Positions 1-27,908 of a stretch of DNA of 64,000 nucleotides are shown here, piece after piece. Positions within the stretch are counted from its first letter, which is position 1. Each line of letters opens with the position of its first letter. The position numbers were made by a program, and so were the translations under genes. The notes under the pieces were generated by a model. It was not told the DNA's origin, made no database searches, and saw only the letters and a list, made by a program, of their open reading frames with translations. This DNA is from Mycobacterium sp. Z3061 (GTDB lineage: Bacteria; Actinomycetota; Actinomycetes; Mycobacteriales; Mycobacteriaceae): contig NZ_CP134062.1 of assembly GCF_031583025.1 (NCBI RefSeq), positions 1,612,001-1,676,000 of the forward strand, read 5' to 3'.

Positions 1-845
1 AAATGGTCCGGGAGCAGATCCTCAGCCAGGGCCAGCATCTCGGGGAAGGTCCGCGGCGGCTTCTCGTGTGCCACCCCGAACGTGGTCAGCACCCATGTGC
101 CGTCCTCGTAGTACAGCATGCCCAGCCCCAGTGACTTGTCGTGCGAGGCGCCGGCGACCACCACCTTTTCGGCGATCAGCCCTTCGGGCATGCGGAATTG
201 GTGTGTGGCGTAGTTGATTCCGATGTCGACGGTCGCCTCCGGGGCACGCTGATAGCCCCACTGGTCCAACCACACCGGCAGCCGGGTACCGCGGCCCGCG
301 GCGTCGACCACCAGGTCGGCGGCGACAAACTCCGGCTCTTCACCCGGCACCGCCGGGTCCAGCAGCACGCCGGTCACCCGCTGCAGGGCCGGTTCGAAAC
401 GCGGCTCGGCGACCGGGCGCCGGACGATCTCCACGTTGTCGATGTCGAGCACGCGGCGCCGGATCTGCCACTCCAGGTGCGGGCGGCTGGGCACGTAGGC
501 GGTGAACTCGTCGCGCAGGGTGTGCCCGGTGCCCAGGACGTGGCCGGCGGCGCCGAGATGAATGCAATCCGGCCGGTTTTCGAGCATCGGCACGCCCGCG
601 GCCACCATGTCTTCCAGCAGACCGGGAAACAGGCTCTCGAACTCGTTGGCCCCGCGCGCCATCAGCATGTGCAGATGACGGTCCTGGGGGACGGTGGCGC
701 GGTTGGCCGGTGTGCCCGGCAGGTCGTCCCGCTCGAATACCGTCACCCGCCCATAGAAGTCGGAAAGCACCCGCGCCGCGGACAGCCCCGCGATGCTCGC
801 TCCGATCACCACCGCATGATTCTTGTTCTCTACGCTCCCCACCAT
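1..845 (-). CDS. FAD-dependent oxidoreductase, 3' end outside window
   Basis: Flavoprotein oxidoreductase of the aromatic-hydroxylase/geranylgeranyl-reductase-like superfamily; its substrate cannot be told from sequence. The first 281 codons are visible. The ATG at 845 gives M-V-G-S-V-E, followed by a dinucleotide-binding fold (VVIGASIAGLSAARVL, about residues 11-26) and an acidic strand end (VFERDD) that would hold the FAD ribose. A later D-A-A-G stretch (LVVDAAGRGTRLP) is the second FAD contact typical of this superfamily. It is divergent from the permease at 906. Position and strand match Rv3254 of M. tuberculosis, which lies next to the alkB cluster. A TACTCT box six bases before the ATG suggests a leaderless transcript. 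Confidence 0.8.
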   Translation of the reverse strand, partial: MVGSVENKNHAVVIGASIAGLSAARVLSDFYGRVTVFERDDLPGTPANRATVPQDRHLHMLMARGANEFESLFPGLLEDMVAAGVPMLENRPDCIHLGAAGHVLGTGHTLRDEFTAYVPSRPHLEWQIRRRVLDIDNVEIVRRPVAEPRFEPALQRVTGVLLDPAVPGEEPEFVAADLVVDAAGRGTRLPVWLDQWGYQRAPEATVDIGINYATHQFRMPEGLIAEKVVVAGASHDKSLGLGMLYYEDGTWVLTTFGVAHEKPPRTFPEMLALAEDLLPDH

Positions 846-851
846 TCCCGC

Positions 852-857
852 AGAGTA
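852..857 (-). promoter_or_regulatory. -10 box of a probable leaderless promoter
   Basis: On the minus strand TACTCT is followed by six bases and then the ATG at 845, the usual TANNNT-N6-start layout of mycobacterial leaderless mRNAs. A 13-bp dyad AGTAC-CCA-GTACT (854-866) overlaps it and also lies upstream of the divergent permease, so a regulator bound there could affect both genes. Confidence 0.45.
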
Positions 858-905
858 CCCAGTACTGTGCGGACACAACTGCAGGTGAGGAGAAGGGGCG
901 GGCAG

Positions 906-2390
906 ATGTCCGGTCGCTGGCGCACGAAATCGGTCGAGCAATCGATCGCCGACACCGACGAGCCGACGACCCGGCTCCGCAAGGACCTGACCTGGCTTGA
1001 CCTGGTGGTCTTCGGCGTCTCGGTGGTGATCGGGGCCGGCATCTTCACCGTCACCGCATCCACCACCGGCGACATCACCGGCCCGGCGATCTGGATCTCG
1101 TTTCTGATCGCGGCAGGCACCTGCGCCCTGGCGGCGTTGTGCTACGCCGAATTCGCCTCCACCCTGCCGGTGGCCGGCAGCGCCTACACCTTCTCCTACG
1201 CCACCTTCGGAGAGTTTCTGGCCTGGATCATCGGCTGGAATCTGGTGCTGGAGTTGGCAATCGGCGCGGCGGTGGTCGCCAAGGGCTGGTCCAGCTACCT
1301 CGGGACGGTATTCGGGTTCGCCGGCGGCACCGTCGCGCTGGGGCCGATCGACTTTGACTGGGGCGCGCTGCTGATCGTCACGCTGGTGGCGATTCTGCTG
1401 GTGCTGGGCACCAAGCTGTCGTCCCGGTTCTCCGCCGTGGTCACTGCGATCAAGGTGTCGGTCGTCATCCTGGTCGTGATCGTCGGCTCCTTCTATATCA
1501 AGGCCGCCAACTTCACGCCGTTCATCCCCAAACCCGAAGCCGAGCATCAGGGCAGGGGCATGGACCAGTCCGTGCTGTCGCTGCTGACCGGCGCCGGTGG
1601 CAGCCACTACGGCTGGTACGGCGTGCTGGCGGGCGCCTCGATCGTCTTCTTCGCGTTCATCGGGTTCGACATCGTGGCGACCATGGCCGAGGAGACCAAG
1701 AACCCGCAGCGCGACGTCCCACGAGGCATCCTGGCCTCACTCGGCGTCGTGACGCTGCTCTACGTGGCGGTGGCGGTCGTGCTGTCCGGAATGGTGTCCT
1801 ACACCCAGCTGCGCACCGTACCCGGGCACGGGCAGGCGAACCTGGCCACCGCGTTCCAGGCCAACGGCATCTACTGGGCCAGCGGAATCATCTCGGTCGG
1901 AGCGCTGGCCGGCCTGACCACGGTGGTGATGGTGCTGATGCTCGGCCAGTGCCGGGTGCTCTTCGCGATGGCGCGCGACGGTCTGTTGCCCCGGAGCCTG
2001 GCCAAGACCGGCTCGCGCGGCACACCGGTGCGGATCACCGTGCTGGTCGCGGTGGTGATCGCGGCGACGGCGTCGGTGTTTCCGATCAACAAGCTCGAAG
2101 AGATGGTCAACGTCGGCACCCTGTTCGCCTTCGTCCTGGTGTCGGCCGGCGTCATCGTGCTGCGCCGGACCCGGCCGGACCTGCCCCGCGGGTTCAGCGC
2201 GCCCTGGGTGCCGGTGCTGCCGATCGCGTCGGTGTGCGCGTGCCTGTGGCTGATGCTCAACCTGACCGCGCTGACCTGGGTGCGGTTCGGCGTCTGGTTG
2301 CTGGTGGGCGTCGCGATCTACCTCGGCTACGGCCGCCGGCATTCAGTGCAGGCAAGACGCGAGAAGGGTGACGCCGACCTGGACATTTAG
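906..2390 (+). CDS. APC-family amino-acid permease
   Basis: Cytoplasmic-membrane amino-acid/cation symporter of the APC superfamily, probably for cationic or neutral amino acids. The product is 494 residues with about 12 hydrophobic segments. The first, after a charged N-terminus (TRLRKDLTWLDLVVFGVS), contains the glycine-rich G-A-G-I-F unwound helix that binds the substrate amino group in this family. The conserved F-I-G-F-D-x-V-A-T-M-A-E-E block of helix 6 is also present. I chose the ATG at 906 because GAGGAGAAGG (887-896) is well spaced before it; the frame is open far upstream, but only as a shadow of the opposite-strand flavoprotein gene. Context equals Rv3253c, next to alkB. Confidence 0.88.
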   Translation: MSGRWRTKSVEQSIADTDEPTTRLRKDLTWLDLVVFGVSVVIGAGIFTVTASTTGDITGPAIWISFLIAAGTCALAALCYAEFASTLPVAGSAYTFSYATFGEFLAWIIGWNLVLELAIGAAVVAKGWSSYLGTVFGFAGGTVALGPIDFDWGALLIVTLVAILLVLGTKLSSRFSAVVTAIKVSVVILVVIVGSFYIKAANFTPFIPKPEAEHQGRGMDQSVLSLLTGAGGSHYGWYGVLAGASIVFFAFIGFDIVATMAEETKNPQRDVPRGILASLGVVTLLYVAVAVVLSGMVSYTQLRTVPGHGQANLATAFQANGIYWASGIISVGALAGLTTVVMVLMLGQCRVLFAMARDGLLPRSLAKTGSRGTPVRITVLVAVVIAATASVFPINKLEEMVNVGTLFAFVLVSAGVIVLRRTRPDLPRGFSAPWVPVLPIASVCACLWLMLNLTALTWVRFGVWLLVGVAIYLGYGRRHSVQARREKGDADLDI

Positions 2391-2421
2391 GTCGATTTTG
2401 GATACTTAGTTTACAAAACAA

Positions 2422-2445
2422 CGTCCCGTGTCTAGACACGAGACG
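2422..2445. promoter_or_regulatory. 24-bp operator-like palindrome before alkB
   Basis: The central 14 bases, CGTGTCTAGACACG (2427-2440), are a perfect palindrome. Flanking CGTC and GACG extend the dyad to 24 bp with one mismatched pair. It lies about 58 bp before the alkB ATG in the only promoter-sized gap of the operon. The operon ends with a TetR regulator, so this is the obvious candidate for its autoregulatory operator. Assignment is by position and symmetry only. Confidence 0.6.
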
Positions 2446-2502
2446 TAAACAGTTGTAATGTCCAACCTCAAGTGGTGAGACTCACACAAGGAGGTTTGGC
2501 GT

Positions 2503-3738
2503 ATGACCACACAAATCGACGGCACTCCGGAGGTGCCGGTGTACGAATGGCGCGACAAGAAGCGCTATCTGTGGCTGATGGGATTGATCGCCCCGACGGC
2601 GCTGTTCGTGATGCTGCCGGTGATCTGGGGGCTGAACCAGCTCGGCTGGCACTCCGCGGCGCAGCTGCCGCTGTGGATCGGGCCGTTCCTGGTCTACATC
2701 CTGTTGCCGCTGCTGGACCTGCGGTTCGGTCCGGACGGGCAGAACCCCCCGGACGAGGTCATGGAGCGGCTGGAGAACGACAAGTACTACCGCTACTGCA
2801 CCTATATCTACATCCCGTTCCAGTACGCCAGCGTGGTCCTGGGCGCCTACCTGTTCACCGCGTCGAACCTGCACTGGCTGGGTTATGAAGGCGGACTGGG
2901 CTGGCTGGGCAAGGTCGGCGTGGCGCTCTCGGTGGGCGTGCTCGGCGGCGTCGGCATCAACACCGCGCACGAGATGGGCCACAAGAAGGACTCGCTGGAG
3001 CGCTGGCTGTCCAAGATCACCCTGGCGCAGACCGCGTACGGCCACTTCTACATCGAGCACAACCGCGGTCACCACGTCCGCGTTTCCACCCCGGAGGACC
3101 CCGCCTCGGCCCGCTTCGGTGAGACGTTCTGGGAATTCCTGCCCCGCAGCGTCATCGGCAGCGCCCGCTCCTCGGTTCACCTGGAGGCGCAGCGCATCCG
3201 CCGGCTCGGCAAGAGCCCCTGGGACCCGCGTACCTACCTGGGCAACGACGTGCTGAACGCCTGGGCGATGACCGTGGTGCTGTTCGGCGCGCTGATCGCG
3301 GCCTTCGGGGTGAGCGTGATCCCGTTCCTGGTCATCCAGGCGATCTTCGGTTTCAGCCTGCTGGAAGCCGTCAACTACCTCGAGCACTACGGACTGTTGC
3401 GGCAGAAGAACGCCAACGGCCGGTACGAGCGCTGCGCCCCGGTGCACAGCTGGAACTCCGACCACATCGTCACCAACCTGTTCCTGTACCACCTGCAGCG
3501 GCACAGCGACCACCACGCCAACCCCACGCGCCGCTACCAGACGCTGCGCAGCATGGAGGGTGCGCCCAACCTGCCCAGCGGGTACGCGTCGATGATCTCG
3601 CTGACCTACTTCCCGCCGCTGTGGCGCAAGGTGATGGACCACCGGGTGCTGGACCACTACGACGGCGACATCACCAAGGTGAACGTGCAGCCCCGGCTGC
3701 GGAAGAAGCTGCTCGCCAAGTACGGAGTGGCAGCATGA
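2503..3738 (+). CDS. alkB: Alkane 1-monooxygenase
   Basis: Integral-membrane non-haem di-iron hydroxylase that converts medium-chain n-alkanes to 1-alkanols, with electrons from rubredoxin. All histidine boxes are present: H-E-M-G-H (156-160), E-H-N-R-G-H-H (185-191), L-Q-R-H-S-D-H-H-A (332-339) and the AlkB-specific N-Y-L-E-H-Y-G (around His295). Hydrophobic stretches alternate between them, and 411 residues is normal for the family. A perfect AAGGAGG (2488-2494) stands eight bases before the ATG. The stop overlaps the first rubredoxin start (ATGA). It heads the alkB-rubA-rubB-alkX operon, as in Rv3252c-Rv3249c. Confidence 0.97.
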   Translation: MTTQIDGTPEVPVYEWRDKKRYLWLMGLIAPTALFVMLPVIWGLNQLGWHSAAQLPLWIGPFLVYILLPLLDLRFGPDGQNPPDEVMERLENDKYYRYCTYIYIPFQYASVVLGAYLFTASNLHWLGYEGGLGWLGKVGVALSVGVLGGVGINTAHEMGHKKDSLERWLSKITLAQTAYGHFYIEHNRGHHVRVSTPEDPASARFGETFWEFLPRSVIGSARSSVHLEAQRIRRLGKSPWDPRTYLGNDVLNAWAMTVVLFGALIAAFGVSVIPFLVIQAIFGFSLLEAVNYLEHYGLLRQKNANGRYERCAPVHSWNSDHIVTNLFLYHLQRHSDHHANPTRRYQTLRSMEGAPNLPSGYASMISLTYFPPLWRKVMDHRVLDHYDGDITKVNVQPRLRKKLLAKYGVAA

Positions 3739-3908
3739 GCGCGGCCTACAAGTGCCCCGTCTGCGACTACCGCTATGACGAGGCCAAAGGCGATGCCCGC
3801 GAAGGTTTCCCGGCCGGCACCGGCTGGGACCAGGTCCCCGATGACTGGACTTGTCCGGACTGCGCCGTCCGCGAGAAGCCCGATTTCGAACTAGTCCAGG
3901 AAGGATGA
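3735..3908 (+). CDS. rubA: Rubredoxin, first copy
   Basis: A 57-residue one-iron electron carrier that passes electrons from rubredoxin reductase to AlkB. The two C-x2-C knuckles that bind the FeS4 iron are C-P-V-C near residue 7 and C-P-D-C near residue 41, with the usual aromatic Y-x-Y-D and D-D-W-T-C-P-D-C surroundings. Translation is probably coupled to alkB through the four-base ATGA overlap. Together with the next gene it makes the usual mycobacterial rubredoxin pair; by position this is the rubA (Rv3251c) equivalent. Confidence 0.95.
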   Translation: MSAAYKCPVCDYRYDEAKGDAREGFPAGTGWDQVPDDWTCPDCAVREKPDFELVQEG

Positions 3909-3914
3909 GATGAC

Positions 3915-4097
3915 ATGAGTGACTACAAGCTCTACCAGTGCGTGCAGTGCGGTTTCGAGTACGACGAGGAGCTGGGCTGGCCGGAAGACGGCATCGCGCC
4001 CGGCACCCGGTGGGACGACATCCCCGAGGACTGGAGCTGCCCGGACTGCGGTGCCGCGAAGTCGGACTTCGTGATGGTGGAGGTCGCCCGGTCATGA
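3915..4097 (+). CDS. rubB: Rubredoxin, second copy
   Basis: A 60-residue rubredoxin with iron ligands in C-V-Q-C near residue 9 and C-P-D-C near residue 43. E-D-W-S-C-P-D-C-G resembles the AlkG-type rubredoxins that work with AlkB. In Pseudomonas only one of the two rubredoxin classes supports alkane hydroxylation, so the two copies here may not be interchangeable. It starts seven bases after rubA ends and its stop overlaps the TetR gene start (ATGA), so all four genes are likely co-translated. Position equals rubB (Rv3250c). Confidence 0.95.
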
Positions 4098-4744
4098 TCG
4101 GCACCAACTTCGCTGCCAAAACAGATATCGTCGCGCCTGTGAAGCGGATTCCCTACGCCGAAGCGTCCCGCGCGTTGTTGCGGGATTCGGTGCTCGACGC
4201 GATGCGGGATCTGCTGCTCACCCGCGACTGGTCCGCCATCACACTGTCCGACGTGGCCCGGGCCGCCGGCATCAGCCGGCAGACCATCTACAACGAGTTC
4301 GGGTCCCGGCAGGGCCTGGCGCAGGGTTACGCCCTGCGCCTGGCCGACCGGCTGGTCGACACCGTCAAGGGCGCGCTGGACGCCAACATCGGCAACATCT
4401 ACGAGTCGTTTTTGCAGGGCTTCCGGGCCTTCTTCGCCGAGTCGGCGGCCGACCCGTTGGTGATCTCGCTGTTGACCGGCGTCGCCAAGCCGGATCTGCT
4501 GCAGCTGATCACCACCGACAGCGCGCCCATCATCAGCCGGGCGTCAGAGCGGCTGGCCACCGCATTCACCCAGACGTGGCTGGCCACCAGCGACGACGAC
4601 GCCGGTGTGCTGTCGCGGGCGATCGTCCGGCTGTGCTTGAGCTACGTGTCGATGCCGCCCGAGGCCGACCACGACGTCGCGGCGGATCTGGCCAGGATGA
4701 TGACCCCGTTCGCGGAGCGTCACGGCGTCATCAACGTGCCCTGA
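4094..4744 (+). CDS. alkX: TetR-family regulator of the alkane operon
   Basis: A 216-residue TetR repressor. The N-terminal helix-turn-helix ([20 protein letters not shown], about residues 49-68) is canonical, and the C-terminal part is a helical ligand-binding domain that probably senses an alkane, alkanol or fatty acid. It is the last gene of the alkB operon and overlaps rubB by four bases, so it would be made with the enzymes and could close a feedback loop at the palindrome 2422-2445. Equivalent to Rv3249c. The symbol alkX is used for actinobacterial regulators in this position; function is inferred from context. Confidence 0.88.
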
Positions 4745-4847
4745 CCAGGACGGCTATTGGCCGGAGGCTAGAGTGAGTCCAGAGAGTTACTGGGCCGACG
4801 CGCCTACTCAGACTCAAAGAAGCCCCCAAAGAAGGATGTAAACCCCT

Positions 4848-6326
<1,479 letters not shown>

Positions 6327-6341
6327 GTCGGGTCTCGGCGC

Positions 6342-6391
6342 GAGTGTGCGGCCAGCCGCACAGCCGACACCGAGTGTGCGGCCTGCCGCAC
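6342..6391 (+). repeat. Two tandem hairpin repeats
   Basis: GAGTGTGCGGC followed by CA or CT and GCCGCAC occurs at 6342-6361 and again at 6372-6391, exactly 30 bp apart. Each copy can form a 6-7 bp GC stem. They follow the sahH stop and precede tmk. They may act as a terminator or be a scattered mycobacterial palindromic repeat. Confidence 0.6.
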
Positions 6392-6408
6392 CACCGTCCG
6401 CGTGCGGG

Positions 6409-6414
6409 TAGCCT
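6409..6414 (+). promoter_or_regulatory. -10 box of tmk, probable leaderless promoter
   Basis: TAGCCT followed by six bases and the GTG at 6421, with no Shine-Dalgarno sequence. This supports the GTG as first codon of both mRNA and protein. Confidence 0.5.
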
Positions 6415-6420
6415 CGCGCC

Positions 6421-7053
6421 GTGCTGATCGCGATCGAAGGCGTCGACGGCTCCGGCAAGCGCACGCTGACCGACGGCCTGCGCGCGCACCTGCACCGCGC
6501 CGGCAAGTCGGTGGCGACGCTGGCGTTCCCGCGCTACGGGCAGTCCATCACCGCTGACCTCGCGGCCGAGGCGCTGCACGGTCAGCACGGTGATCTCGCG
6601 CAATCGGTGTACGGGATGGCGACATTGTTCGCGCTCGACCGGGCCGGGGCCGTCACGGAGATTAACCGGCTGCGGCGCGAGCACGACGTGCTGATCCTGG
6701 ACCGCTACGTCGCCTCCAACGCCGCCTACAGCGCGGCCCGGTTGCATCAGGACGCTACCGGGGACGCGGTGGCGTGGGTCCACGCGCTGGAATACGAGCG
6801 GCTTGCGCTACCGGTGCCGGACTGGCAGATCCTGCTCGCGGTGCCGGCCGAACTGGCCGGGCAGCGGGCCCGCGACCGCGCCGAGAGCGACCCGGGCCGG
6901 GCGCGCGACAGCTACGAACGCGACGACGGACTGCAACGGCGGACCGGCGAGGTGTACGCCGGACTGGCCGCCGCGGGGTGGTCCGGGCGATGGCTCGTGG
7001 TGGACGCGGACGTCGATCCGGCCGCTCTGGCGGCCGAGTTGACGGCCGTTTAG
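6421..7053 (+). CDS. tmk: Thymidylate kinase
   Basis: Phosphorylates dTMP to dTDP with ATP, an essential step of dTTP synthesis. The 210-residue protein opens directly with the P-loop (I-A-I-E-G-V-D-G-S-G-K-R-T, residues 3-15). It has the D-R-Y-V-A-S-N-A-A-Y-S-A-A-R segment with the DRY-like base-binding motif, and F-P-R-Y-G-Q for dTMP phosphate contact. Close likeness to Rv3247c is clear from memory. The GTG start gives the family-typical N-terminus and follows a leaderless-type -10 box. It lies upstream of mtrA in the same direction. Confidence 0.95.
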   Translation: MLIAIEGVDGSGKRTLTDGLRAHLHRAGKSVATLAFPRYGQSITADLAAEALHGQHGDLAQSVYGMATLFALDRAGAVTEINRLRREHDVLILDRYVASNAAYSAARLHQDATGDAVAWVHALEYERLALPVPDWQILLAVPAELAGQRARDRAESDPGRARDSYERDDGLQRRTGEVYAGLAAAGWSGRWLVVDADVDPAALAAELTAV

Positions 7054-7133
7054 CACAAAATCGGCGCTATTTGCCCTTATCAATCAAGAAACACCCGTGT
7101 GGTAGCCGAGTTTTGTCCGGATCTGGTGACACC

Positions 7134-7820
7134 ATGGACTCCATGAGGCAAAGGATTCTGGTCGTCGACGACGACGCTTCGCTGGCCGAGATGCTCACCA
7201 TCGTGTTGCGTGGGGAGGGTTTCGACACCGCGGTCATCGGCGATGGCACTCAGGCCCTGACCGCCGTGCGCGAGTTGCGTCCGGATCTGGTGCTGTTGGA
7301 CTTGATGCTGCCGGGCATGAACGGCATCGACGTCTGCCGGGTGCTGCGCGCCGATTCCGGCGTGCCGATCGTCATGCTGACCGCCAAGACCGACACCGTT
7401 GACGTGGTGCTCGGCCTGGAGTCCGGCGCCGACGACTACATCATGAAGCCGTTCAAGCCCAAGGAATTGGTGGCGCGGGTGCGGGCGCGGTTGCGGCGCA
7501 ACGACGACGAGCCCGCCGAGATGCTGTCCATCGCCGACGTCGACATCGACGTGCCGGCGCACAAGGTCACCCGCAACGGCGAGCAGATCTCCCTCACACC
7601 GCTGGAATTCGACCTGTTGGTCGCGTTGGCGCGTAAACCCCGCCAGGTGTTTACTCGTGATGTGCTGCTCGAACAGGTCTGGGGATACCGGCACCCGGCG
7701 GACACCCGCTTGGTGAACGTGCACGTCCAGCGCCTGCGCGCCAAGGTCGAAAAGGATCCCGAGAACCCGACCGTGGTTCTGACCGTTCGAGGAGTGGGTT
7801 ACAAGGCCGGCCCCCCGTGA
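7134..7820 (+). CDS. mtrA: Response regulator MtrA
   Basis: OmpR/PhoB-type response regulator, essential in M. tuberculosis, that controls cell-wall, division and replication genes. The receiver domain (about 5-120) has the acidic pair Asp12-Asp14, phospho-acceptor Asp56 (L-V-L-L-D-L-M-L-P-G), Thr in M-L-T-A-K and Lys in I-M-K-P-F. A winged-helix domain follows (about 130-228) with the D-T-R-L-V-N-V-H-V-Q-R-L recognition helix. The 228 residues are nearly identical to the M. tuberculosis protein as I recall it. The ATG at 7134 gives the conserved M-D-S-M-R-Q-R start. First gene of mtrA-mtrB-lpqB. Confidence 0.98.
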   Translation: MDSMRQRILVVDDDASLAEMLTIVLRGEGFDTAVIGDGTQALTAVRELRPDLVLLDLMLPGMNGIDVCRVLRADSGVPIVMLTAKTDTVDVVLGLESGADDYIMKPFKPKELVARVRARLRRNDDEPAEMLSIADVDIDVPAHKVTRNGEQISLTPLEFDLLVALARKPRQVFTRDVLLEQVWGYRHPADTRLVNVHVQRLRAKVEKDPENPTVVLTVRGVGYKAGPP

Positions 7821-7847
7821 TCCGGCGGCCGGGAGAGTGCGGTGTAG

Positions 7848-9515
7848 GTGATCTGGCGCTCTCCACGACGTAGTCGAGGTCGCTGGGGCCGTTCGGGGCC
7901 TCTGCCGCGCGGCTTGAGTGCTGTGAGCCGTGCCGTCGCTGTGGTTTGGCGTCGTTCCCTGCAACTGCGTGTCGTTGCGCTGACCCTGGGGTTGTCGCTG
8001 GCGGTGATTCTGGCGCTGGGTTTCGTGCTGACCAGCCAGGTCACCAATCGCGTGCTCGACGTCAAGGTCAAGGCCGCCACCGATCAGATCGAGCGGGCGC
8101 GCAACACCGTCAGCGGAATCGTCAACGGTGAGGAAACCCGCTCACTGGACAGCAGCCTGCAGTTGGCGCGCAACACGCTGACCTCGAAAACCGATCCCGC
8201 CTCCGGCGCCGGCCTGGCCGGTGCCTTCGACGCGGTGCTCATGGTGCCGGGGGACGGCCCGCGGGCCGCTTCGACGGCGGGACCCGTCGACCAGGTGCCC
8301 AACGCGTTGCGGGGCTTCGTCAAAGCAGGGCAGGCCGCTTACCAGTACGCGACGGTGCACACCGACGGGTTCTCCGGGCCGGCGCTGATCGTCGGGACAC
8401 CGACGTCGTCGAGGGTGGCGAACCTCGAGCTGTACCTGATCTTCCCGCTGGCCAACGAGCAGGCCACCATCACGCTGGTGCGCAGCACGATGGCCACCGG
8501 GGGGCTGGTGCTGCTGCTCTTGCTCGCGGGCATCGCCCTGCTGGTGTCGCGCCAGGTGGTGGTGCCGGTGCGGTCCGCCTCGCGGATCGCCGAGCGGTTC
8601 GCCGAGGGGCACCTGTCCGAGCGCATGCCGGTCCGCGGTGAGGACGACATGGCGCGGCTGGCGGTCTCGTTCAACGACATGGCCGAGAGCCTGTCCCGCC
8701 AGATCACCCAGCTCGAAGAGTTCGGCAACCTGCAACGCCGGTTCACCTCCGACGTCAGCCACGAACTGCGCACCCCGCTGACCACGGTGCGGATGGCCGC
8801 CGACCTGATCTACGACCACAGCGCCGACCTGGATCCCGCCCTGCGCCGCTCCACCGAATTGATGGTCAACGAGCTGGACCGCTTCGAGACGCTGCTCAAC
8901 GACCTGCTGGAGATCTCCCGGCACGACGCCGGGGTGGCCGAGTTGTCCGTAGAGGCGGTCGACCTGCGCACCACCGTCAACAAGGCCCTGACCAACGTCG
9001 GCCACCTGGCCGAGGAGGCCGGCATCGAGCTGCTGGTGGACATGCCGACCGAGGAAGTGATCGCGGAGGTCGACGCCCGCCGGGTGGAACGCATTCTGCG
9101 CAACCTGATCGCCAACGCCATCGACCATGCCGAGCACAAGCCGGTGCGGATCCGGATGGCGGCCGACGTGGACACGGTGGCAGTCACCGTCCGCGACTAC
9201 GGCGTCGGCCTGCGGCCCGGCGAGGAGAAGCTGGTGTTCAGCCGGTTCTGGCGCTCCGACCCGTCCCGGGTGCGGCGCTCCGGCGGTACCGGGCTGGGCC
9301 TGGCGATCAGCATCGAGGATGCCCGGCTGCACCAGGGCCGCCTGGAAGCCTGGGGCGAGCCCGGCCAGGGCGCCTGCTTCCGGCTGACGCTGCCGCTGGT
9401 GCGGGGGCACAAGGTGACCACCAGCCCGCTGCCCATGAAGCCGATCCCGGCGCCTGCGCCGGCGGCCAACCCGGCTGCCCTCGCCGATCAGCGCACCCGG
9501 GAGCACGCCGGATGA
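7848..9515 (+). CDS. mtrB: Sensor histidine kinase MtrB
   Basis: Membrane histidine kinase partner of MtrA, linked to septum formation and cell-wall state. It is 555 residues with a short basic N-terminus, a first membrane helix ([18 protein letters not shown]), an extracytoplasmic loop, a second helix near residue 220 and a HAMP segment. The phosphorylation site is His305 in [11 protein letters not shown]. Then come N (N-L-I-A-N-A-I-D-H), G1 (D-Y-G-V-G-L) and G2 (G-G-T-G-L-G-L-A) boxes. The GTG start at 7848 matches the M. tuberculosis N-terminus. Its stop overlaps the lpqB start (ATGA). Confidence 0.97.
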
Positions 9516-17920: not shown

Positions 17921-20767
<2,847 letters not shown>

Positions 20768-20792
20768 CTAGATCAGCGCCCGACGCCGAGGA

Positions 20793-21554
20793 TCACGCCC
20801 CTAGCGCGAACGCTTCGACCGGCAGAGCGTAGCCGCGCAGGTTCAGCAGGCGTCGCTGCGACATCGCCATGCGGTCGTCGGCCACGCCGGCGGCAACGAG
20901 CAACTCCCCGCCCGCAGCGTGCTGTTGCATCCGCGCGGCGACATTGACCGGATCGCCCAGGGCGGTGAAGTCGACGACGGCGTCACCGACGTTGCCCACG
21001 TACGCGATGCCGGCGTTGACCGCCACACCCAACTCCAGCCACGGCCCCTCGGCGCTGCCGTAACCGACCGCTTGCAGCAGGTCCAATCCGGCCGCGACGG
21101 CATGGCCCCGGTACTGCGGACCGCTGATGCCGCGGACGAAAAACGCCATCACCTCGTCGCCGATCAGTTTGTCGATCACCGCGTCGTGCCGCAGCAGCGT
21201 CTGCGTCGCGGCCCCGTAGAACCGGTTCAGCAGGGCCGCGAAGTCTTTGGCCGCGCCGCGCTGACCCAGCGCGGTGGACCCCCGGACGTCGGCGAACAGC
21301 ACCGCGACGTCCACCTCGGCGCCGCCCGCCGGCAGCGCGTCGCAGCAACGACTGCACAGGTTCGGGTTCTTGCGCGAGGGACTGAACCCGGCGACGGCGA
21401 GAACCCGGCCGGCGGGGCCGCCGAACGGGTTGTTGCACAGCTTGCATCGCGGCGCCGATGGCAGGTAGCGGAACACCCGCCGTGCCTTGACCAGCGATGC
21501 GTGACCGTCGGTGAGGACGCTGTCCCAGGGGTTGTGTTCGATCGCCGTGACCAT
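20793..21554 (-). CDS. Class III adenylyl cyclase with N-terminal zinc ribbon
   Basis: A 253-residue soluble protein. The N-terminal part has C-K-L-C (about 37-40) and C-S-R-C-C (about 67-71), a probable zinc ribbon. The cyclase homology domain spans about 80-250 and holds every canonical residue: metal Asp in F-A-D-V-R-G-S-T, Lys and second Asp in D-K-L-I-G-D-E-V, substrate Asp in V-D-F-T-A-L-G-D, and transition-state Asn and Arg in V-N-V-A-A-R. The Lys/Asp pair predicts ATP rather than GTP as substrate. It is divergent from the HD-GYP/LuxR gene over the shared dyad at 21590 and convergent with secA1. Confidence 0.88.
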   Translation of the reverse strand: MVTAIEHNPWDSVLTDGHASLVKARRVFRYLPSAPRCKLCNNPFGGPAGRVLAVAGFSPSRKNPNLCSRCCDALPAGGAEVDVAVLFADVRGSTALGQRGAAKDFAALLNRFYGAATQTLLRHDAVIDKLIGDEVMAFFVRGISGPQYRGHAVAAGLDLLQAVGYGSAEGPWLELGVAVNAGIAYVGNVGDAVVDFTALGDPVNVAARMQQHAAGGELLVAAGVADDRMAMSQRRLLNLRGYALPVEAFALGA

Positions 21555-21589
21555 GGGCCCAGGCTAGGGCCACGCAACGGGGCGTCACA

Positions 21590-21605
21590 TGGGGCAGTTG
21601 CCCCA
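21590..21605. promoter_or_regulatory. Operator-like dyad TGGGGCA-GT-TGCCCCA
   Basis: A perfect 7+7 dyad in the divergent gap between the cyclase and HD-GYP/LuxR genes. A weaker copy keeping GCA-N3-GCCCCA is at 21612-21623. The same element recurs at 23164-23179 and 26487-26502. The regulator is likely the adjacent LuxR-type protein, but this is inference. Confidence 0.6.
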
Positions 21606-21642
21606 GTAAGTGCAGAAGCCCCATAGAGTGCAGAATGAGGGC

Positions 21643-23166
21643 GTGCGCAAAGCCGAGTTGCTGGCGGCTATATCGCTGGCTATCGACCTCGGTCTGGGTC
21701 AACCGATGGAACACATGCTTCGGTCCACCCTGATCGCAACCCGCGTCGCCGACCGGATGGGTCTGGACGCGGGCCAGCGCGCGACGGTGTACTACGCCAA
21801 TCTGGTGGGCTGGATCGGTTGTCACGCCGATTCCCATGAACTTTCGGCGCTGTTCGGTGACGACATAGCGTTCCGGGCCGACACCTACGGGGTGGATATG
21901 GCCGGCCTGCCGTTCCTGCGTCTGATGGTCAGCCACGTCGGGCGCGGACTGCCCGCGTGGGAACGCGGACTGCGCTCGGCGGCCTTCCTGCTCACCGCCC
22001 GCAACCAGGTGGCCAGCCTGATCAGTTCGCACTGCAGTTCGGCCGGGGTGCTCTCCGATCGGATCGGCCTGGACAGCGAGGTGGGGGCGGCGCTGGCCTA
22101 CATCTTCGAGCGCTGGGACGGCCGGGGAATGCCGAACGGCGCTCGCGGAGAAGACATTCCACTTGAGATCCACATCGTCCACCTGGCCGATGTCATCGAG
22201 GTCCATCTGCGCACGGGCGGCCTGGATCACGCGGTCGAGACCGCCCGGTCCCGCCGTGGCACGCAGTTCAGCCCTGCGGTGGCCGATGTGTTCACCCGCG
22301 ATGCGGCCGCGATCGTCGACGGCCTACTCGAAATAGACGTGTGGACCGCGGCTCTGGCGCAGGCACCCGATCGCGACCGCATCATCGGCGCCGACGAGAT
22401 CAACGAATTACTCAGGGCGATGGCGGATTTCGTCGATCTGAAATGTCCATGCTCACCGGGCTACTCGCGCGGCGTCGCCGATCTCGCGGCCGCGGCGGCC
22501 CGGCACTGCCGCATGCCGCCCGCCGATATCACCCGTCTGTACCGCGCGGGCCTGGTCCAGGGTCTGGGCAGACTGGGTGTGTCCAACCAGATCTGGGAGA
22601 AGAAGGGCCCGCTGAGTACGGCCGAATGGGAGCGGGTACGGATGTACCCCTACCTGACCGGCCGGATCCTGAGCCGGATCGACGGCCTGGAGTCGGTGGT
22701 GTCGGTGGCCACCAAGCACGAGGAACGTATCGACGGATCGGGCTTTCCCCGTAGCCTTTCCGGCAACGAATTGACCCCTCAGGACCGGCTTCTCGCCGCC
22801 GTGGTGGCCTACCGGCAACTGCTCGAACCACGCCCGCAACGGGCCGCCCTCGATCCGGACGCCGCCGCGGCCGAACTGCGCCGGGAGGCGCGCGGCGGAC
22901 GCCTGGACGCCGACTCGGTGGAAGCCGTGCTGGCCGCGGCCGGGCATCGGGCAACCCGGCGCACCTCATGGTCTTCCGGGCTCACCGCCCGGGAGGTGGA
23001 AGTCCTGCGGCTTGTCGCGCAGGGCCGGTCGAACCGTGAAATCGCCAGCCAGTTGTTCATCGCCGAGAAGACCGCGCGCAATCACGTCGAGCGGATCTAC
23101 ACCAAGTTGGGCGTCAACAACCGCACGCAGGCAAGCCTTGCGGCGATCGACCGCGGGATGATTTGA
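21643..23166 (+). CDS. Tandem degenerate HD-GYP regulator with LuxR DNA-binding domain
   Basis: A 507-residue protein with two HD-GYP-like modules and a C-terminal LuxR/GerE helix-turn-helix ([16 protein letters not shown], about residues 447-507). Module one ends in [10 protein letters not shown]. Module two has [10 protein letters not shown] where active enzymes have L-H-D-I-G-K, and [12 protein letters not shown] for the GYP motif. Because the metal-binding HD pair is lost in both, it probably binds a ligand rather than cleaving cyclic di-GMP. I take GTG 21643, 13 bases after a TAGAGT box; in-frame GTGs at 21610 and 21628 are alternatives. Confidence 0.82.
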
Positions 23167-23179
23167 GGCAAGCGCCCCA
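23164..23179. promoter_or_regulatory. Operator-like dyad TGAGGCA-AG-CGCCCCA
   Basis: Second clear copy of the shared element, overlapping the stop codon of the HD-GYP/LuxR gene and lying 36 bp before the ABC transporter start. With flanks it matches the 26486 copy at 17 of 19 positions (TTGAGGCA-N2-CGCCCCATG). Confidence 0.6.
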
Positions 23180-23215
23180 TGTAACCGGTCCCGCCGCCGG
23201 CCGATGATCCTCAGC

Positions 23216-24829
23216 ATGACCGCACTAGTACATGCCATCGATGTGAGCCGACGGGTCGGCACACGACAAATCCTGCAGAAACTGTCGCTCCGCATAGAAC
23301 CGGGGGAGCTGGTCGCCATCGCCGGTGGCAGCGGAGCGGGAAAGACCACTCTGCTGAAAATCCTTGCGGGACTGCAGCCGCCGACCGGCGGGGCGGTCTC
23401 GCACAACGTGGCAGGAGAAGGCGCCGGGCGAAAAGCAGGTGTCGGCTACGTGCCCCAGGACGACATCATCCACCTCGAAATGCCGCTCCGCCGCACGCTG
23501 CGCTACGCGGCGCGGCTCCGACTGCCGGCGGGCACCACGGCCGGCGAGGCGGACCGTGCGGTCGAGCAGGTCATGAAGGATCTCGACCTGACCGACCGGG
23601 CCGAGGTGCCGGTGCGTTCGCTGTCCGGCGGCCAGCGCAAGCGCGCCAGCATCGCCGTCGAACTGCTGACCCGCCCGCGCCTGTTCTTCCTCGACGAACC
23701 GACCTCCGGGCTCGACCCCTCGACGGCGGCCGACGTGATGCGGCTGCTGCGCGGCCTGAGTCGGCGCGGGGTGACGGTCGTGCTCACCACGCATGAGCCG
23801 GCCGGCATCGATCAGTGTGACCGGGTGATCTTTCTGGCCCGCGACGGCCGTCTCGCATTCAACGGCAGCCCGGCGAACGCACGCCGGCATTTCGGGGTGC
23901 ACAACCTGGCCGACGTATATGACCGACTGGTCGGTGACTACATCCCGATGGTCGAGCCGATCGCACACCGGACGGGTGCGACGACGCCCGCCGGCCCGGA
24001 AATCAAGCGCCCGAACGCCTTTCGGCAGTGGTGGCTGCTGACGCGCCGCAATGCCGACGTGCTGGTCCGCAACCGGCTGACCCTGGCGGTGCTGCTCGGT
24101 TCACCGGTACTGGTCACGGCCATGATGGCGACGCTGTTCCGGCGCGGGGCGTTCGACCCCGGTGGCGCCGGCGATGTCGGCCCGGCCCAGATCGTCTTCT
24201 GGATCGCGTTCGACGGCTTCTTCTTCGGCCTCACCTACGGTTTGCTGCAAATCGTCGGGGAGATCGCCGTGTTCCGGCGGGAACGCCTTGCCGGGCTCAG
24301 CGTGGCGGCCTACGTGGCGTCCAAGGTCACCGCCTTGCTGCCGGTGCTGGCCGCGGTGAGCGCGGTGCTGCTGCTCGTGCTGCGGGGTCTGGGCCGGTTG
24401 CCGGCCGCCGGATGGCATGTCTACGCCCTGCTGTTCGCGACGATGGTGATCGAAGCGACCTCCGCGCTGGCCCTCGGCCTGCTCGCCTCCGCCGCGGTGC
24501 ACAACGCCGCTCAGGCGGCGCTCGCGCTGCCCATGCTGTGCTTCCCACAGGTGTTGTTCGGCGGCGCCATCGTCCCCGTCGACAAGATGGCCCTGCCGGG
24601 GCGGTTGATGAGCCTCGGCCTGTCCAACCGCCATGCGTTCGAAGCGCTAGGGCGCGATCTGAACCTGGACCGGTTCACCACCACGATGCCGGCCATGTCC
24701 GGCTACCGGGAGACGTTCAGCGGAGGCACCGGTGGAAGCCTGCTGGCGCTGGGCTGCTTCGCGGTCGCACTCACGCTGGCCACGGTGTGGGTACTGGACC
24801 GCAGGTCCGGCGTCAGGTCGGCCGGCTGA
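23216..24829 (+). CDS. ABCG-like transporter, fused ATPase and ABC-2 permease
   Basis: Half-transporter of 537 residues that probably exports a lipid or hydrophobic compound. The N-terminal ATPase (about 1-235) has Walker A G-G-S-G-A-G-K-T-T, signature L-S-G-G-Q-R-K-R and Walker B F-F-L-D-E-P-T-S-G-L-D. The ATPase-before-membrane order with about six C-terminal helices is that of the ABCG/White family; the FHA domains of the related Rv1747 are missing. ATG 23216 gives M-T-A-L-V-H-A; ATG 23204 is also in frame. Its 3' end overlaps the convergent phosphatase gene by 17 bases. Confidence 0.88.
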   Translation: MTALVHAIDVSRRVGTRQILQKLSLRIEPGELVAIAGGSGAGKTTLLKILAGLQPPTGGAVSHNVAGEGAGRKAGVGYVPQDDIIHLEMPLRRTLRYAARLRLPAGTTAGEADRAVEQVMKDLDLTDRAEVPVRSLSGGQRKRASIAVELLTRPRLFFLDEPTSGLDPSTAADVMRLLRGLSRRGVTVVLTTHEPAGIDQCDRVIFLARDGRLAFNGSPANARRHFGVHNLADVYDRLVGDYIPMVEPIAHRTGATTPAGPEIKRPNAFRQWWLLTRRNADVLVRNRLTLAVLLGSPVLVTAMMATLFRRGAFDPGGAGDVGPAQIVFWIAFDGFFFGLTYGLLQIVGEIAVFRRERLAGLSVAAYVASKVTALLPVLAAVSAVLLLVLRGLGRLPAAGWHVYALLFATMVIEATSALALGLLASAAVHNAAQAALALPMLCFPQVLFGGAIVPVDKMALPGRLMSLGLSNRHAFEALGRDLNLDRFTTTMPAMSGYRETFSGGTGGSLLALGCFAVALTLATVWVLDRRSGVRSAG

Positions 24830-26453
24830 GCCGCACCCTACCCACTTCGTCCAGCGCGTCGGCGCCGCGGGGCTGCTCGAACAGCACCTCGGCGCCGCGG
24901 CCGTCCACCAGCAGGGTGGCGATGGTGTTGCCGAACAGGGGACCGCAGGTGTTCACCCAGGACAGCGGAGGCGCCGGAACGTGGCGCAGGCGTGCCCACC
25001 AGCGCGCCAGCTTGGCAGCGGGACGCGTCCAAGCCAGGGTGAACACCGGCTTGACGAACAGCGGCACGTAGTTGTTCACCGGTGAGCACACCAGTTGGTG
25101 CACCGCGGCCTGCTCACCCGACTCACCGGCCCACTCGGCGCGCGCGGCGTAGCTGTGGTGCACGTCGCCGGACAGTACGTTGACGGTGGCCGGCCCCGTG
25201 GAATGACCGGCCACCGATCTAATCAGCTCGGCCAGCCGTTCGAACGATTTGTGGAACGCCGGCCAGTGTTCGAAATCCACTGCCTGGCGCGTCTTTTCGG
25301 CAAGCCTGCCGGGCAGCCCGGGCCGGTCGGCGTTGCGTTCGTTGACCGCTTCCAAGTCTCCGAGGGCGGGCGGCATCAGCCAGGGCACCGACGTGGCCAG
25401 CATCAGGTGGTCCAATTCGTCGAGGCCGTCGCAGACCTGTGACTGCACCCAGTCGAACTCGTGCTCGCCGATCATCATGCGTTGGCCCGAGTCCAGGATC
25501 CGGCCGTTGCGTGAGTCGATCATGATGAGCCGGCTACGGCCGAAATCCCATCGGTAGCTGAACCTAACGCCCTTGTTGCCGTCCACCTCTGCGTCGGCGC
25601 GGTCGGCCAGCTCGACCAGGTGTGGCCAGCAGTCACCGTCGGTCGCCAGCAGGCGCCGGTAGTCCTCGTCCGCGGCCAGCTCAGCCGGGCTCAGGTTGCC
25701 CAGGTGCTGATACACCCAGTAAGAGGCCAGCCCGGCTCTGATCCGGTCGCGCCACCACGGTTTCTCCTGCATGTCGGCCCGCCAGGAAGACGACGTGTTC
25801 CAGTCGTCCCTGATGTCGTGGTCGTCGAAGATCATCGCGGTGGGAACCGTGGACATCAGCCACCTGATCTCGGGGTCGCTCCACGAATGACGGTACAGCC
25901 GTTCATATTCGGTGAAACTCACCACCTCGTCCGGGGGACGCTTGGCCCGCTTGGCCCGGCCGCGGCGGCCGGCCAGCCGTCGCCGCGCCTCTGGTGTCAG
26001 CTCATCCGCGTACAACTGGTCGCCGAGCAGGATGAGCGCCTCGGGCCAGTCTTCGGTCGGCTGGGTGGCCATCCGGGCGGCGTACACGTCCAGCGCGTCG
26101 AACCCGAGTTTCGACTCGATGCTCGAGTCGTCGGTCTTGGGGTACCGGCACGATCCGAAGATCGCCCGCAGCCGATGGGTGGATTCCGGCCCCCGGGTCC
26201 GGATGACGCTCGGCGGGAACGTTGAATCCGGCAGCGGCCAAACCACTTCGCCGTTGCACCTGACGTCGTATTCGGTGACCGTGTCCGGAGTCAGCCCGGT
26301 CACCGTCACCAGCGCGTAGTGGTGATCCTGCACGGCGAACGTCCGGGCCGATCCGCCCAGTACCTGCACCGTTGCCGCACTGTCGGTTTGGACCCACACC
26401 AGCGCGGTCGTATCGGACACGTGCCGCAACGCCGGGCCGAGCAAGAGTGCCAT
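24813..26453 (-). CDS. PhoD-like alkaline phosphatase/phosphodiesterase
   Basis: Metallophosphatase of the PhoD-like family, 546 residues. An N-terminal fibronectin-like beta domain (about 1-90) is followed by the catalytic domain with G-S-C-R-Y, L-G-D-Q-L-Y-A-D-E, F-D-D-H-D-I-R-D-D-W-N and L-S-G-D-V-H-H-S-Y, which supply Asp, Asn and His ligands for the metal centre. No Tat signal or other export signal is visible, so it may act in the cytoplasm, unlike classical Bacillus PhoD. It is divergent from the mddA-like gene over the dyad at 26487, which ties it to the neighbouring signalling block. Confidence 0.88.
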   Translation of the reverse strand: MALLLGPALRHVSDTTALVWVQTDSAATVQVLGGSARTFAVQDHHYALVTVTGLTPDTVTEYDVRCNGEVVWPLPDSTFPPSVIRTRGPESTHRLRAIFGSCRYPKTDDSSIESKLGFDALDVYAARMATQPTEDWPEALILLGDQLYADELTPEARRRLAGRRGRAKRAKRPPDEVVSFTEYERLYRHSWSDPEIRWLMSTVPTAMIFDDHDIRDDWNTSSSWRADMQEKPWWRDRIRAGLASYWVYQHLGNLSPAELAADEDYRRLLATDGDCWPHLVELADRADAEVDGNKGVRFSYRWDFGRSRLIMIDSRNGRILDSGQRMMIGEHEFDWVQSQVCDGLDELDHLMLATSVPWLMPPALGDLEAVNERNADRPGLPGRLAEKTRQAVDFEHWPAFHKSFERLAELIRSVAGHSTGPATVNVLSGDVHHSYAARAEWAGESGEQAAVHQLVCSPVNNYVPLFVKPVFTLAWTRPAAKLARWWARLRHVPAPPLSWVNTCGPLFGNTIATLLVDGRGAEVLFEQPRGADALDEVGRVRLSRPT

Positions 26454-26486
26454 TCAACCACCCTACGGGCGGGCGGCGGTCCAAGT

Positions 26487-26502
26487 TGAGGCATCCGCCC
26501 CA
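26487..26502. promoter_or_regulatory. Operator-like dyad TGAGGCA-TC-CGCCCCA
   Basis: Third clear copy of the shared element, in the 84-bp divergent gap between the PhoD-like and MddA-like genes. It lies 34 bp from the phosphatase start and 36 bp from the methyltransferase start, so one bound regulator could control both. Confidence 0.6.
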
Positions 26503-26537
26503 TGCCCACACGCATGGTCTCGCCGAACAATCAGCCC

Positions 26538-27308
26538 ATGAAACGCTATCTGACAATCTGTTACGGCACCCTGAGCTACCTGGTGTTCCTGGTCGCCTTC
26601 CTGTACGCCGTCGGCTTCGTCGGCGCAATCCTGGTGCCGCGCAACGTAAACACCGGAATCAGCGCACCCTTGTGGCAGGCGCTGCTGATCAATTCGGCGC
26701 TGCTCGGCCTGTTCGGCGTGCAGCACAGTGTGATGGCCCGTCCGGCGTTCAAACGCTGGTGGACTCGATGGGTGCCGACGACGATCGAGCGCAGCACCTA
26801 TGTGTTGCTGGCCAGTTCGGTGCTGCTGGTGCTCTACTGGCAGTGGCGCAGCATGCCGGTGCATGTCTGGGAGGTGCGGCAACCGGCCGGGCGCTGGGTG
26901 ATTTGGGTGTTGTTCTGGGTCGGATGGGCGACGGTGTTGGCCTCGACCTTCATGATCAATCATTTCGACCTGTTCGGGTTGCGGCAGGTCTATCTCGCCT
27001 GGCGAGGGAATCCATACAACGACTTGGGTTTTCGCACTCATCTGCTCTACCGGTTGGTGCGTCACCCGATCATGCTCGGCTTTCTGGTGGCGTTCTGGGC
27101 GGCGCCGACGATGACAGCGGGGCACCTGCTGTTCGCCATCGGTACCACGGCCTACATCCTGATCGCCCTGCAGCTGGAAGAGCGCGACCTGACGGCGCAG
27201 CTCGGCGAGCAGTACCGCGACTACCGTCGCCGGGTTCCGATGCTGGTTCCCCGCGTCCGGCGATCAGCCGATGTGCAGGGCTACCACCAGCCATCGGCCG
27301 GGAGGTAG
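26538..27308 (+). CDS. mddA: Membrane S-methyltransferase, MddA type (NnrU/ICMT-like)
   Basis: A 256-residue polytopic membrane protein with about six hydrophobic segments, of the isoprenylcysteine-methyltransferase-like/NnrU group. The C-terminal catalytic signature is visible: L-V-R-H-P-I-M-L-G-F and L-E-E-R-D-L-x-x-x-x-G-E-Q-Y-R-D-Y. The M. tuberculosis homologue in this neighbourhood, Rv3238c as I recall, is the methanethiol S-methyltransferase that makes dimethyl sulfide. ATG 26538 gives M-K-R-Y-L and a membrane-protein N-terminus; the earlier in-frame ATG 26502 would begin inside the operator. The substrate is an inference from homology. Confidence 0.75.
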   Translation: MKRYLTICYGTLSYLVFLVAFLYAVGFVGAILVPRNVNTGISAPLWQALLINSALLGLFGVQHSVMARPAFKRWWTRWVPTTIERSTYVLLASSVLLVLYWQWRSMPVHVWEVRQPAGRWVIWVLFWVGWATVLASTFMINHFDLFGLRQVYLAWRGNPYNDLGFRTHLLYRLVRHPIMLGFLVAFWAAPTMTAGHLLFAIGTTAYILIALQLEERDLTAQLGEQYRDYRRRVPMLVPRVRRSADVQGYHQPSAGR

Positions 27309-27788
27309 CTGCTCCACCCGGCAGGCGATCGCGTGGACCCGCTCGCCGCGACTGTACGAGCCGAATACCTCGGCGGCGTCGTCACCGAGGGCAGGCTGGA
27401 CCCGCATCCGGCGCAACACCGCGGCGCCGGGCGTCCCGGCCGTGGCCCGGCCGACCGCCAGCACCGCGTCGACCAGTGACGGCGCCAGCACCGTGCCGAG
27501 TTGGGCGGCCGGGCGGCGCCGGTCGATGACCTCCAGCACGCGGCGCAGCGCGGCGTCGGCGAAGGCGGCCGCCTGGCGCATCCGTGGCGACAGCGGCGTC
27601 TTCGGCGCCGGGCGAGGACGCGGGCGCGGGACCGACGCCGGCGATGAGGGCCGGCAGCGCGGCGCGTCAGGGCCGGGCGGGTGCGCCGGCGGTTCGTAGT
27701 CGATCACCGGCGTTACGGCGGTGTCGGAAACGGGCACCCGTGGAGAGTGGCAGACGATCGCCGGTCTGCGGTATTCACCCGCCGGCAT
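27264..27788 (-). CDS. Rv3235-family conserved protein
   Basis: Protein of unknown function, 174 residues from ATG 27788; ATG 27863 would give 199 and GTG 27737 would give 157. The N-terminal half is disordered and Pro/Arg-rich. The C-terminal half (from about A-A-A-F-A-D-A-A-L-R-R-V-L) is folded and conserved in the actinobacterial Rv3235 family, ending in a beta strand W-L-V-V-A-L-H-I-G. It is divergent from the WS/DGAT gene, as Rv3235 is from Rv3234c, and runs 45 bases into the convergent mddA-like gene. Confidence 0.7.
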   Translation of the reverse strand: MPAGEYRRPAIVCHSPRVPVSDTAVTPVIDYEPPAHPPGPDAPRCRPSSPASVPRPRPRPAPKTPLSPRMRQAAAFADAALRRVLEVIDRRRPAAQLGTVLAPSLVDAVLAVGRATAGTPGAAVLRRMRVQPALGDDAAEVFGSYSRGERVHAIACRVEQLPPGRWLVVALHIG

Positions 27789-27908
27789 TGATCCACAAGC
27801 GCCGTGGGCGCCAGCCCCGACCTTCGCGGACCCGCGAATGCGGTTACCGTGGGGCGACTGCATGATCCCGAAAACGAAAGGCGACGACTTGAGGAGGACC
27901 GAGCCGCG

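Follow-up and report, generated by a model that had tools for sequence, protein, structure and literature searches.

In a 64,000-nt stretch of the genome of Mycobacterium sp. Z3061 (contig NZ_CP134062.1, positions 1,612,001 to 1,676,000 of the forward strand; here referred to as the window), a 16-bp dyad occurs three times within one gene block, and its sequence and distribution indicate that it is probably the operator of a regulator encoded in the same block. This regulator, here named HD-LuxR, combines degenerate tandem HD/HD-GYP domains with a LuxR/GerE helix-turn-helix. The best explanation as a whole, which we regard as likely, is that HD-LuxR would bind the dyad and activate leaderless promoters, with its HD/HD-GYP part acting as a sensor, in a thiol/sulfide response. 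Computation directly shows the motif and how rare it is, as well as its association with HD-LuxR, the geometry common to the promoters, and the kinship of the domains. Genomes and loci of this analysis carry G- and L-numbers, respectively.

The dyad and its distribution

The regulator gene and the copies of the dyad in the window are as follows.

21643 to 23166, plus strand: HD-LuxR regulator gene (degenerate tandem HD/HD-GYP domains, LuxR/GerE helix-turn-helix)
21590 to 21605, no strand assigned: putative operator 1, TGGGGCAGTTGCCCCA, a perfect palindrome in the gap between the divergent cyclase and HD-LuxR genes
23164 to 23179, plus strand: putative operator 2, TGAGGCAAGCGCCCCA, which includes the HD-LuxR stop codon and starts 52 nt before the ATG (23216) of an ABC transporter gene
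26487 to 26502, plus strand: putative operator 3, TGAGGCATCCGCCCCA, in the gap between the divergent phoD and mddA genes, starting 51 nt before the mddA ATG (26538)
21612 to 21623, plus strand: weaker copy, GCAGAAGCCCCA, within an insertion of about 18 bp found in the window and in locus L017

The three 16-mers at 21590, 23164 and 26487 and the agreement of 17 out of 19 bases between the sites at 23163 and 26486, both reported by a first-pass annotation of this DNA, were reproduced exactly. In the genome (6.79 Mb, a single contig), the core pattern TGRGGC-N4-GCCYCA is present at four places, three of them in the block, versus 10 matches for a reversed control pattern. The window contains three core matches, and 300 Markov simulations gave a mean of 0.053 and a maximum of 1; the dyad is genuine and greatly exceeds chance expectation. 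When two mismatches were allowed in the motif of the first-pass annotation, 7 matches were obtained where 3.7 were expected; a count of 7 was also reached in 11 of 100 shuffles. Since such matches occur at chance level, only near-exact copies are informative, and the genome scan that had been proposed bears out the motif in its near-exact but not in its relaxed form. Positions 7 and 10, which were free in the search, are mostly purine and pyrimidine, respectively (78 distinct sites).

A scan of genome contigs yielded 78 loci with relatives of HD-LuxR (from the best 80 of 93 confirmed stretches), and 118 genomes of the genus yielded 56 more, giving a total of 134 loci, some of which are duplicates (e.g., L018/L095 and L025/L096) or truncated. 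An exact core lies within 3.5 kb of HD-LuxR in 114 of these. All 58 mycobacterial genomes with HD-LuxR contain the core, versus 40 of the 60 without it (n = 118; Fisher 3e-7, with genomes counted as independent despite shared ancestry), and the mean number of core sites per genome is 3.2 and 1.2, respectively. The motif scan of related mycobacteria also came out in favor of the annotated motif: 54 of the 56 mycobacterial loci hold the core, with 84 sites in 645 kb, as compared with 0.16 expected from the rate in genomes without HD-LuxR (5 Mb per genome assumed) and a single match of the control pattern. L119 and L150 are the two exceptions, and L150 is a fragment of 4.6 kb. With a stricter pattern, 14 of 22 genomes with HD-LuxR and 27 of 128 without it were positive among 150 genomes of the order (counted manually), and 48 matches versus 12 for the control were found in the 17 of the 58 HD-LuxR-containing genomes that were searched. 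Two symmetric variants, TGGGGT-N4-ACCCCA and TCGGGC-N4-GCCCGA (the second also in Solirubrobacter), alter both half-sites together, as would be expected of a dimer site. The idea of one regulon under the LuxR-type protein is therefore well supported by presence and absence, by proximity, by operators unlinked to the regulator, and by the symmetric variants.

At mddA, operators were counted within 160 nt in genomes with HD-LuxR and within a 210-nt stretch in genomes without it. For the 36 mddA genes linked to HD-LuxR, 30 have an exact site, 31 a site within one mismatch, four a site with two mismatches, and one has none; of the 24 mddA genes from genomes without HD-LuxR, one has an exact site and the next best has two mismatches. 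Kept apart were 15 unlinked mddA genes from genomes with HD-LuxR (one exact, one with one mismatch, 13 with none), and outside the 24 stand an mddA fragment from a further genome without HD-LuxR (G089) and a second match in G064 (L187; no HD-LuxR, no site). Five genomes without HD-LuxR carry mddA beside secA. At -51, G048 keeps an intact site, G038, G051 and G029 have degenerate ones, and G059 has lost it. A variant operator, TGAGGCAAAYGACCTA, occurs at about -51 of mddA in four genomes with HD-LuxR (L111, L114, L121 and L143), and a close form is found in G038, possibly as a result of the drift of one half-site to another stable form. As the G038 form resembles this variant, the evidence that operators decay once the regulator is lost is no more than suggestive, and the notion of a clean decay is weakened by this resemblance and by the intact site of G048. 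G029, which otherwise lacks the gene, has a C-terminal remnant of HD-LuxR, containing a stop, between secA and mddA (G029:C1:477671-477898).

Promoter anatomy and candidate targets

The other genes of the block and the -10-like elements proposed for them are the following.

20793 to 21554, minus strand: class III nucleotide cyclase, 253 aa (PF00211, E 1.8e-12), probable target
23216 to 24829, plus strand: ABC transporter, ATPase fused to an ABC-2 membrane domain (PF00005 and PF01061), probable target
24813 to 26453, minus strand: PhoD-like phosphatase (PF09423), doubtful target
26538 to 27308, plus strand: mddA, methanethiol S-methyltransferase (NF045656, 377.4 bits, cut-off 270), the strongest candidate target
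21561 to 21566, minus strand: predicted -10-like TAGCCT of the cyclase promoter, at operator +39 and six nt before the ATG
23203 to 23208, plus strand: predicted -10-like GATGAT of the ABC promoter, at operator +39
26526 to 26531, plus strand: predicted -10-like AACAAT of the mddA promoter, at operator +39 and six nt before the ATG

Promoters were aligned on the operator for 103 of 131 sequences after removal of near-copies, 48 of them belonging to genes for an acetoacetate-decarboxylase-like (ADC-like) protein; ABC promoters were treated apart (19 non-redundant of 39). As a simple open reading frame (ORF) caller misplaced some starts, most gene offsets were taken from protein alignments. Immediately 3' of the operator stands a -35-like TG[CT]G (T in 92/103, G in 90/103), followed by a weak -10-like hexamer at +39 to +44, of which the last base is T in 67/103 promoters, and by the A of the start codon at +51 in 57/103. 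The 19 ABC promoters have in common the TG and a GATGAT-like hexamer at +39. In the window, the cyclase (51 nt from operator start to ATG), mddA (51 nt) and the ABC gene (52 nt) all have the hexamer at +39, and these spacings suggest that the ABC gene starts at 23216 and mddA at the ATG at 26538. A spacing of 50-51 nt recurs at mddA of many mycobacteria (21/35 operator-mddA pairs); the operator is found in a place equivalent to operator 1 in L017, L018, L019, L021, L022, L024 and L036, and ABC genes of Mycobacterium, Nocardia and Rhodococcus also have upstream operators. Leaderless mycobacterial mRNAs begin at the start codon, and with transcripts assumed to begin there, the center of the operator would fall near -43.5, a position typical for LuxR-type activators. 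The shared geometry thus suggests leaderless promoters that are activated from about -43.5, and in the window it is the cyclase, ABC transporter and mddA genes whose sequences fit such a layout. For phoD, the distance from the operator to a -10-like TAGGGT is 21 nt in the window, 33 in L017, 14 in L018, and 19 in L019; because this spacing varies among relatives, phoD is a doubtful target and was rejected as a firm one. Of the genes that the earlier claim assigned to the three control regions, phoD shares such a region without a conserved promoter spacing.

The HD-LuxR gene appears to start at the GTG at 21643, 53 nt from the start of the operator. In L018, L019 and L021, a -10-like CAGAAT follows the operator after 7 nt, and about 18 bp are missing at the place of the weaker copy, which is absent there. 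Among the relatives compared, this copy is present only in the window and in L017, its 99%-identical sister, which suggests that it arose recently, by insertion or duplication, and is not a conserved site; it is probably not functional and, although present as annotated, was rejected as a fourth operator. In these two, the insertion shifts CAGAAT to 25 nt after the operator (hexamer +41, GTG +53), which brings the -10-like element of HD-LuxR near the activator layout (window 21606-21642); autoregulation may have been altered as a result in this group of strains. HD-LuxR is a doubtful target of its own product.

In mycobacteria, a frequent order is operator, ADC-like gene, HD-LuxR, operator and mddA, with secA immediately before it in many loci, as is also the case for the block of the window. 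Many of the 56 loci have HD-LuxR and mddA in the slot between secA1 and the DUF6459/tgs3 genes; judged from these mycobacterial loci, the block was not simply inserted after secA1. In other lineages, the genes found at the operator are those for DsrE, OsmC or ABC proteins. In many loci of type B (e.g., L098, L110 and L220), the ADC-like partner gene precedes HD-LuxR; its product has no Pfam or Protein Data Bank (PDB) sequence match in the members scanned, and a structure model tentatively suggests an acetoacetate-decarboxylase-like fold.

A survey of 20 regions with 24 sites, nearly all distant from HD-LuxR, found that 13 sites precede a recognized gene, namely, those for OsmC (two, G057), a cyclase-like protein (G057), ADC-like proteins (G060, G039 and G066), an ABC transporter (G113), MddA (G037), DsrE (G034, adjoining HD-LuxR), and a fusion of a cNMP-binding domain and thioredoxin reductase (G039; G041 via 75% identity; in G076, the assignment depends solely on a short match at the N-terminus). 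The thirteenth site lies 51 nt from a gene for an Rv2258c-like methyltransferase in G102, a genome without an MddA match. Judged by names, the common thread of these targets would be sulfur and redox chemistry, which suggests thiol/sulfide stress in the relatives. In G060, four exact operators lie within 4 kb, far from HD-LuxR, without a target recognized by ORF calling (L214, G060:C1:2440222-2444155).

Counterevidence and rival explanations

Several points weigh against the explanation favored here. Shared ancestry is not taken into account in the tests, and the loci behind the proximity counts were themselves picked via HD-LuxR. L119 (G114) has HD-LuxR but no site within its 12 kb. Beyond the genus the support becomes thinner: the 12 genomes with HD-LuxR found there comprise three with an exact site nearby, three with one mismatch, two with a symmetric variant, and four with none, and a palindrome scan outside the genus also gave seven unrelated palindromes. 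The promoter of the HD-LuxR gene itself is without conserved geometry. G048 retains a perfect site at mddA without HD-LuxR, and G070, G057, G001 and G080 have the regulator with the two-mismatch form at mddA. Lastly, 11 of the 24 surveyed sites are without a recognized target, and called genes contain at least three of these 11 (L219, L223 and L228).

The rival that survives best, although we consider it improbable, holds that HD-LuxR is a repressor on the same operator that is freed by its ligand. In L018, L019 and L021, the operator at the gene for HD-LuxR ends 7 nt before CAGAAT, where it would indeed block RNA polymerase. At mddA, the cyclase, the ABC gene and other targets, however, the operator lies just 5' of the -35 position at a common spacing, which is activator-like, and no TTGACA/TATAAT-type promoter was found in the block, which fits an activator rather than a repressor. 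Activation of the targets could go together with autorepression of HD-LuxR. A still less probable rival, to which we give little credence, is that another transcription factor of the same genomes binds the dyad, HD-LuxR being a co-inherited neighbor. It could account for the 40 of 60 mycobacterial genomes without HD-LuxR that have at least one core match and for the perfect mddA site of G048, which is without a full HD-LuxR, but not readily for the drop in mean sites from 3.2 to 1.2, nor for sites that adjoin HD-LuxR in several families with differing other neighbors. That the dyads are terminators, RNA hairpins or chance GC-rich palindromes can practically be dismissed: operator 2 overlaps the HD-LuxR stop codon and the 7-bp inverted repeats are able to form hairpins, but operators 1 and 3 are flanked by divergent genes, the start-codon spacing is common, a scan of 20600-27900 for intrinsic terminators (stem and T-run) gave one terminator-like site, at 24536, and none at the dyads, and chance is contradicted by the genome counts, the simulations (0.053 per window), and the association with HD-LuxR.

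Regulator, block products and known systems

For the preferred reading of HD-LuxR as an activator, we infer binding, activation as opposed to repression, transcript starts, ligand and physiological role as follows. The tandem HD/HD-GYP part would sense a ligand; the helix-turn-helix dimer would sit on TGRGGCR-N2-YGCCYCA (7-2-7 half-sites), its center about 43 bp upstream of leaderless promoters; HD-LuxR beside the -35-like TG[CT]G would recruit RNA polymerase to the cyclase, ABC transporter and mddA genes; and MddA would convert toxic H2S or methanethiol to dimethyl sulfide in a thiol/sulfide response.

HD-LuxR, which is 99% identical to that of Mycobacterium gordonae CTRI 14-8773, matches HD_5 and GerE in Pfam; the structure model and alignments used 21646-23163, leaving off the first residue. 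The HD-GYP metal ligands, which we take to be H, D, H, H, H, D (read off the alignment with PDB 5z7c), are Q, G, Y, H, E, V in the window protein, so that the annotated HD-GYP-LuxR architecture is present but five of the six ligands are replaced. All six are intact in 6/6 Amycolatopsis/Kutzneria rows and in 2/2 Georgenia/Intrasporangium rows, and the last Asp is replaced in 50/50 type B mycobacterial rows. With most metal ligands lost in the window species, the protein probably binds its ligand without cleaving it. Kinship with V-cGAP3 prompts the guess that this ligand is a cyclic dinucleotide, a guess as good as cAMP. Thiol sensing via the conserved Cys59/Cys130 was dropped, as both residues also occur in V-cGAP3 and are family features.

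The catalytic domain of the cyclase looks intact: it aligns with CyaB and a second solved adenylate cyclase (3r5g, 1wc0), and FADVRGST, DKLIGDEV and DFTALGDPVNVAAR, whose residues presumably serve metal, substrate and transition-state binding, are kept. Its N-terminus contains two CxxC motifs (Cys 37/40 and 67/70; window 21345-21446, minus strand) that could bind zinc. The tie to cAMP proposed by the first-pass annotation would be a possibility, with this cyclase and, in relatives, the cNMP-binding thioredoxin reductase as a candidate target.

The annotated methyltransferase can now be named MddA. Two further traces of mddA were seen in the genome. The fourth core place, G000:C1:4429015, lies in a decayed stretch that by eye resembles the start of mddA (L012:4957-5045, i.e., G000:C1:4428956-4429044), its neighbors presumably being a 13E12/DUF222-like and a PE_PGRS-like gene. 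A second mddA-like match (G000:C1:4412046-4412768, upstream of L186) has 59% identity, one internal TGA and no operator. According to published reports, Mdd enzymes S-methylate H2S and MeSH to DMS, for which detoxification was proposed (PMC12904073), Mycobacterium-like mddA genes are among the most abundant in grassland soil (PMC5607357), and an operon with mddA in M. abscessus shows some of the strongest inductions by two antibiotics (PMC4974804). A literature search found no regulator of actinobacterial mddA, and no description of an HD-LuxR regulator or a TGRGGC-N4-GCCYCA operator.

Tentatively, and as a possibility that we rate as rather unlikely in its full form, HD-LuxR would represent a class of one-component activators, undescribed in the literature searched, with a V-cGAP3-type sensor that is a trigger enzyme in Amycolatopsis-like lineages and a pure receptor in mycobacteria, linking a cGAMP-like messenger (perhaps together with cAMP) to the methylation of sulfur gases to dimethyl sulfide. 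The present results provide this regulator family with a sharply defined operator and a target list, which makes its function directly testable, and offer a candidate controller for mddA, a dimethyl-sulfide gene common in soil bacteria. If it is true that an HD-GYP-type sensor binds a cyclic dinucleotide, second-messenger signaling would be tied to actinobacterial sulfur-gas chemistry.

Among known systems, MddA itself is covered by a curated equivalog family (NF045656), above whose cut-off the window product scores. The tandem arrangement of an N-terminal HD-like and a C-terminal HD-GYP domain in HD-LuxR resembles that of V-cGAP3, the 3'3'-cGAMP phosphodiesterase of Vibrio cholerae (PDB 5z7c), from which HD-LuxR differs by an extra LuxR DNA-binding domain and, in the window species, by the five replaced metal ligands. 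The C-terminal GerE helix-turn-helix is a feature of the LuxR/GerE (NarL-FixJ) class and is like that of regulators of the NarL/VraR/LiaR/DosR type, but HD-LuxR has HD domains instead of a receiver, and its half-site would be TGRGGCR, which we take to be unlike the DosR box. The LuxR domain of VpsT, presumably a c-di-GMP-responsive protein, also matched HD-LuxR. With BldD, a c-di-GMP-responsive transcription factor, as with VpsT, the likeness lies in the idea of a cyclic dinucleotide governing DNA binding; in contrast to both BldD and VpsT, the candidate ligand domain of HD-LuxR is an HD-GYP phosphodiesterase fold.

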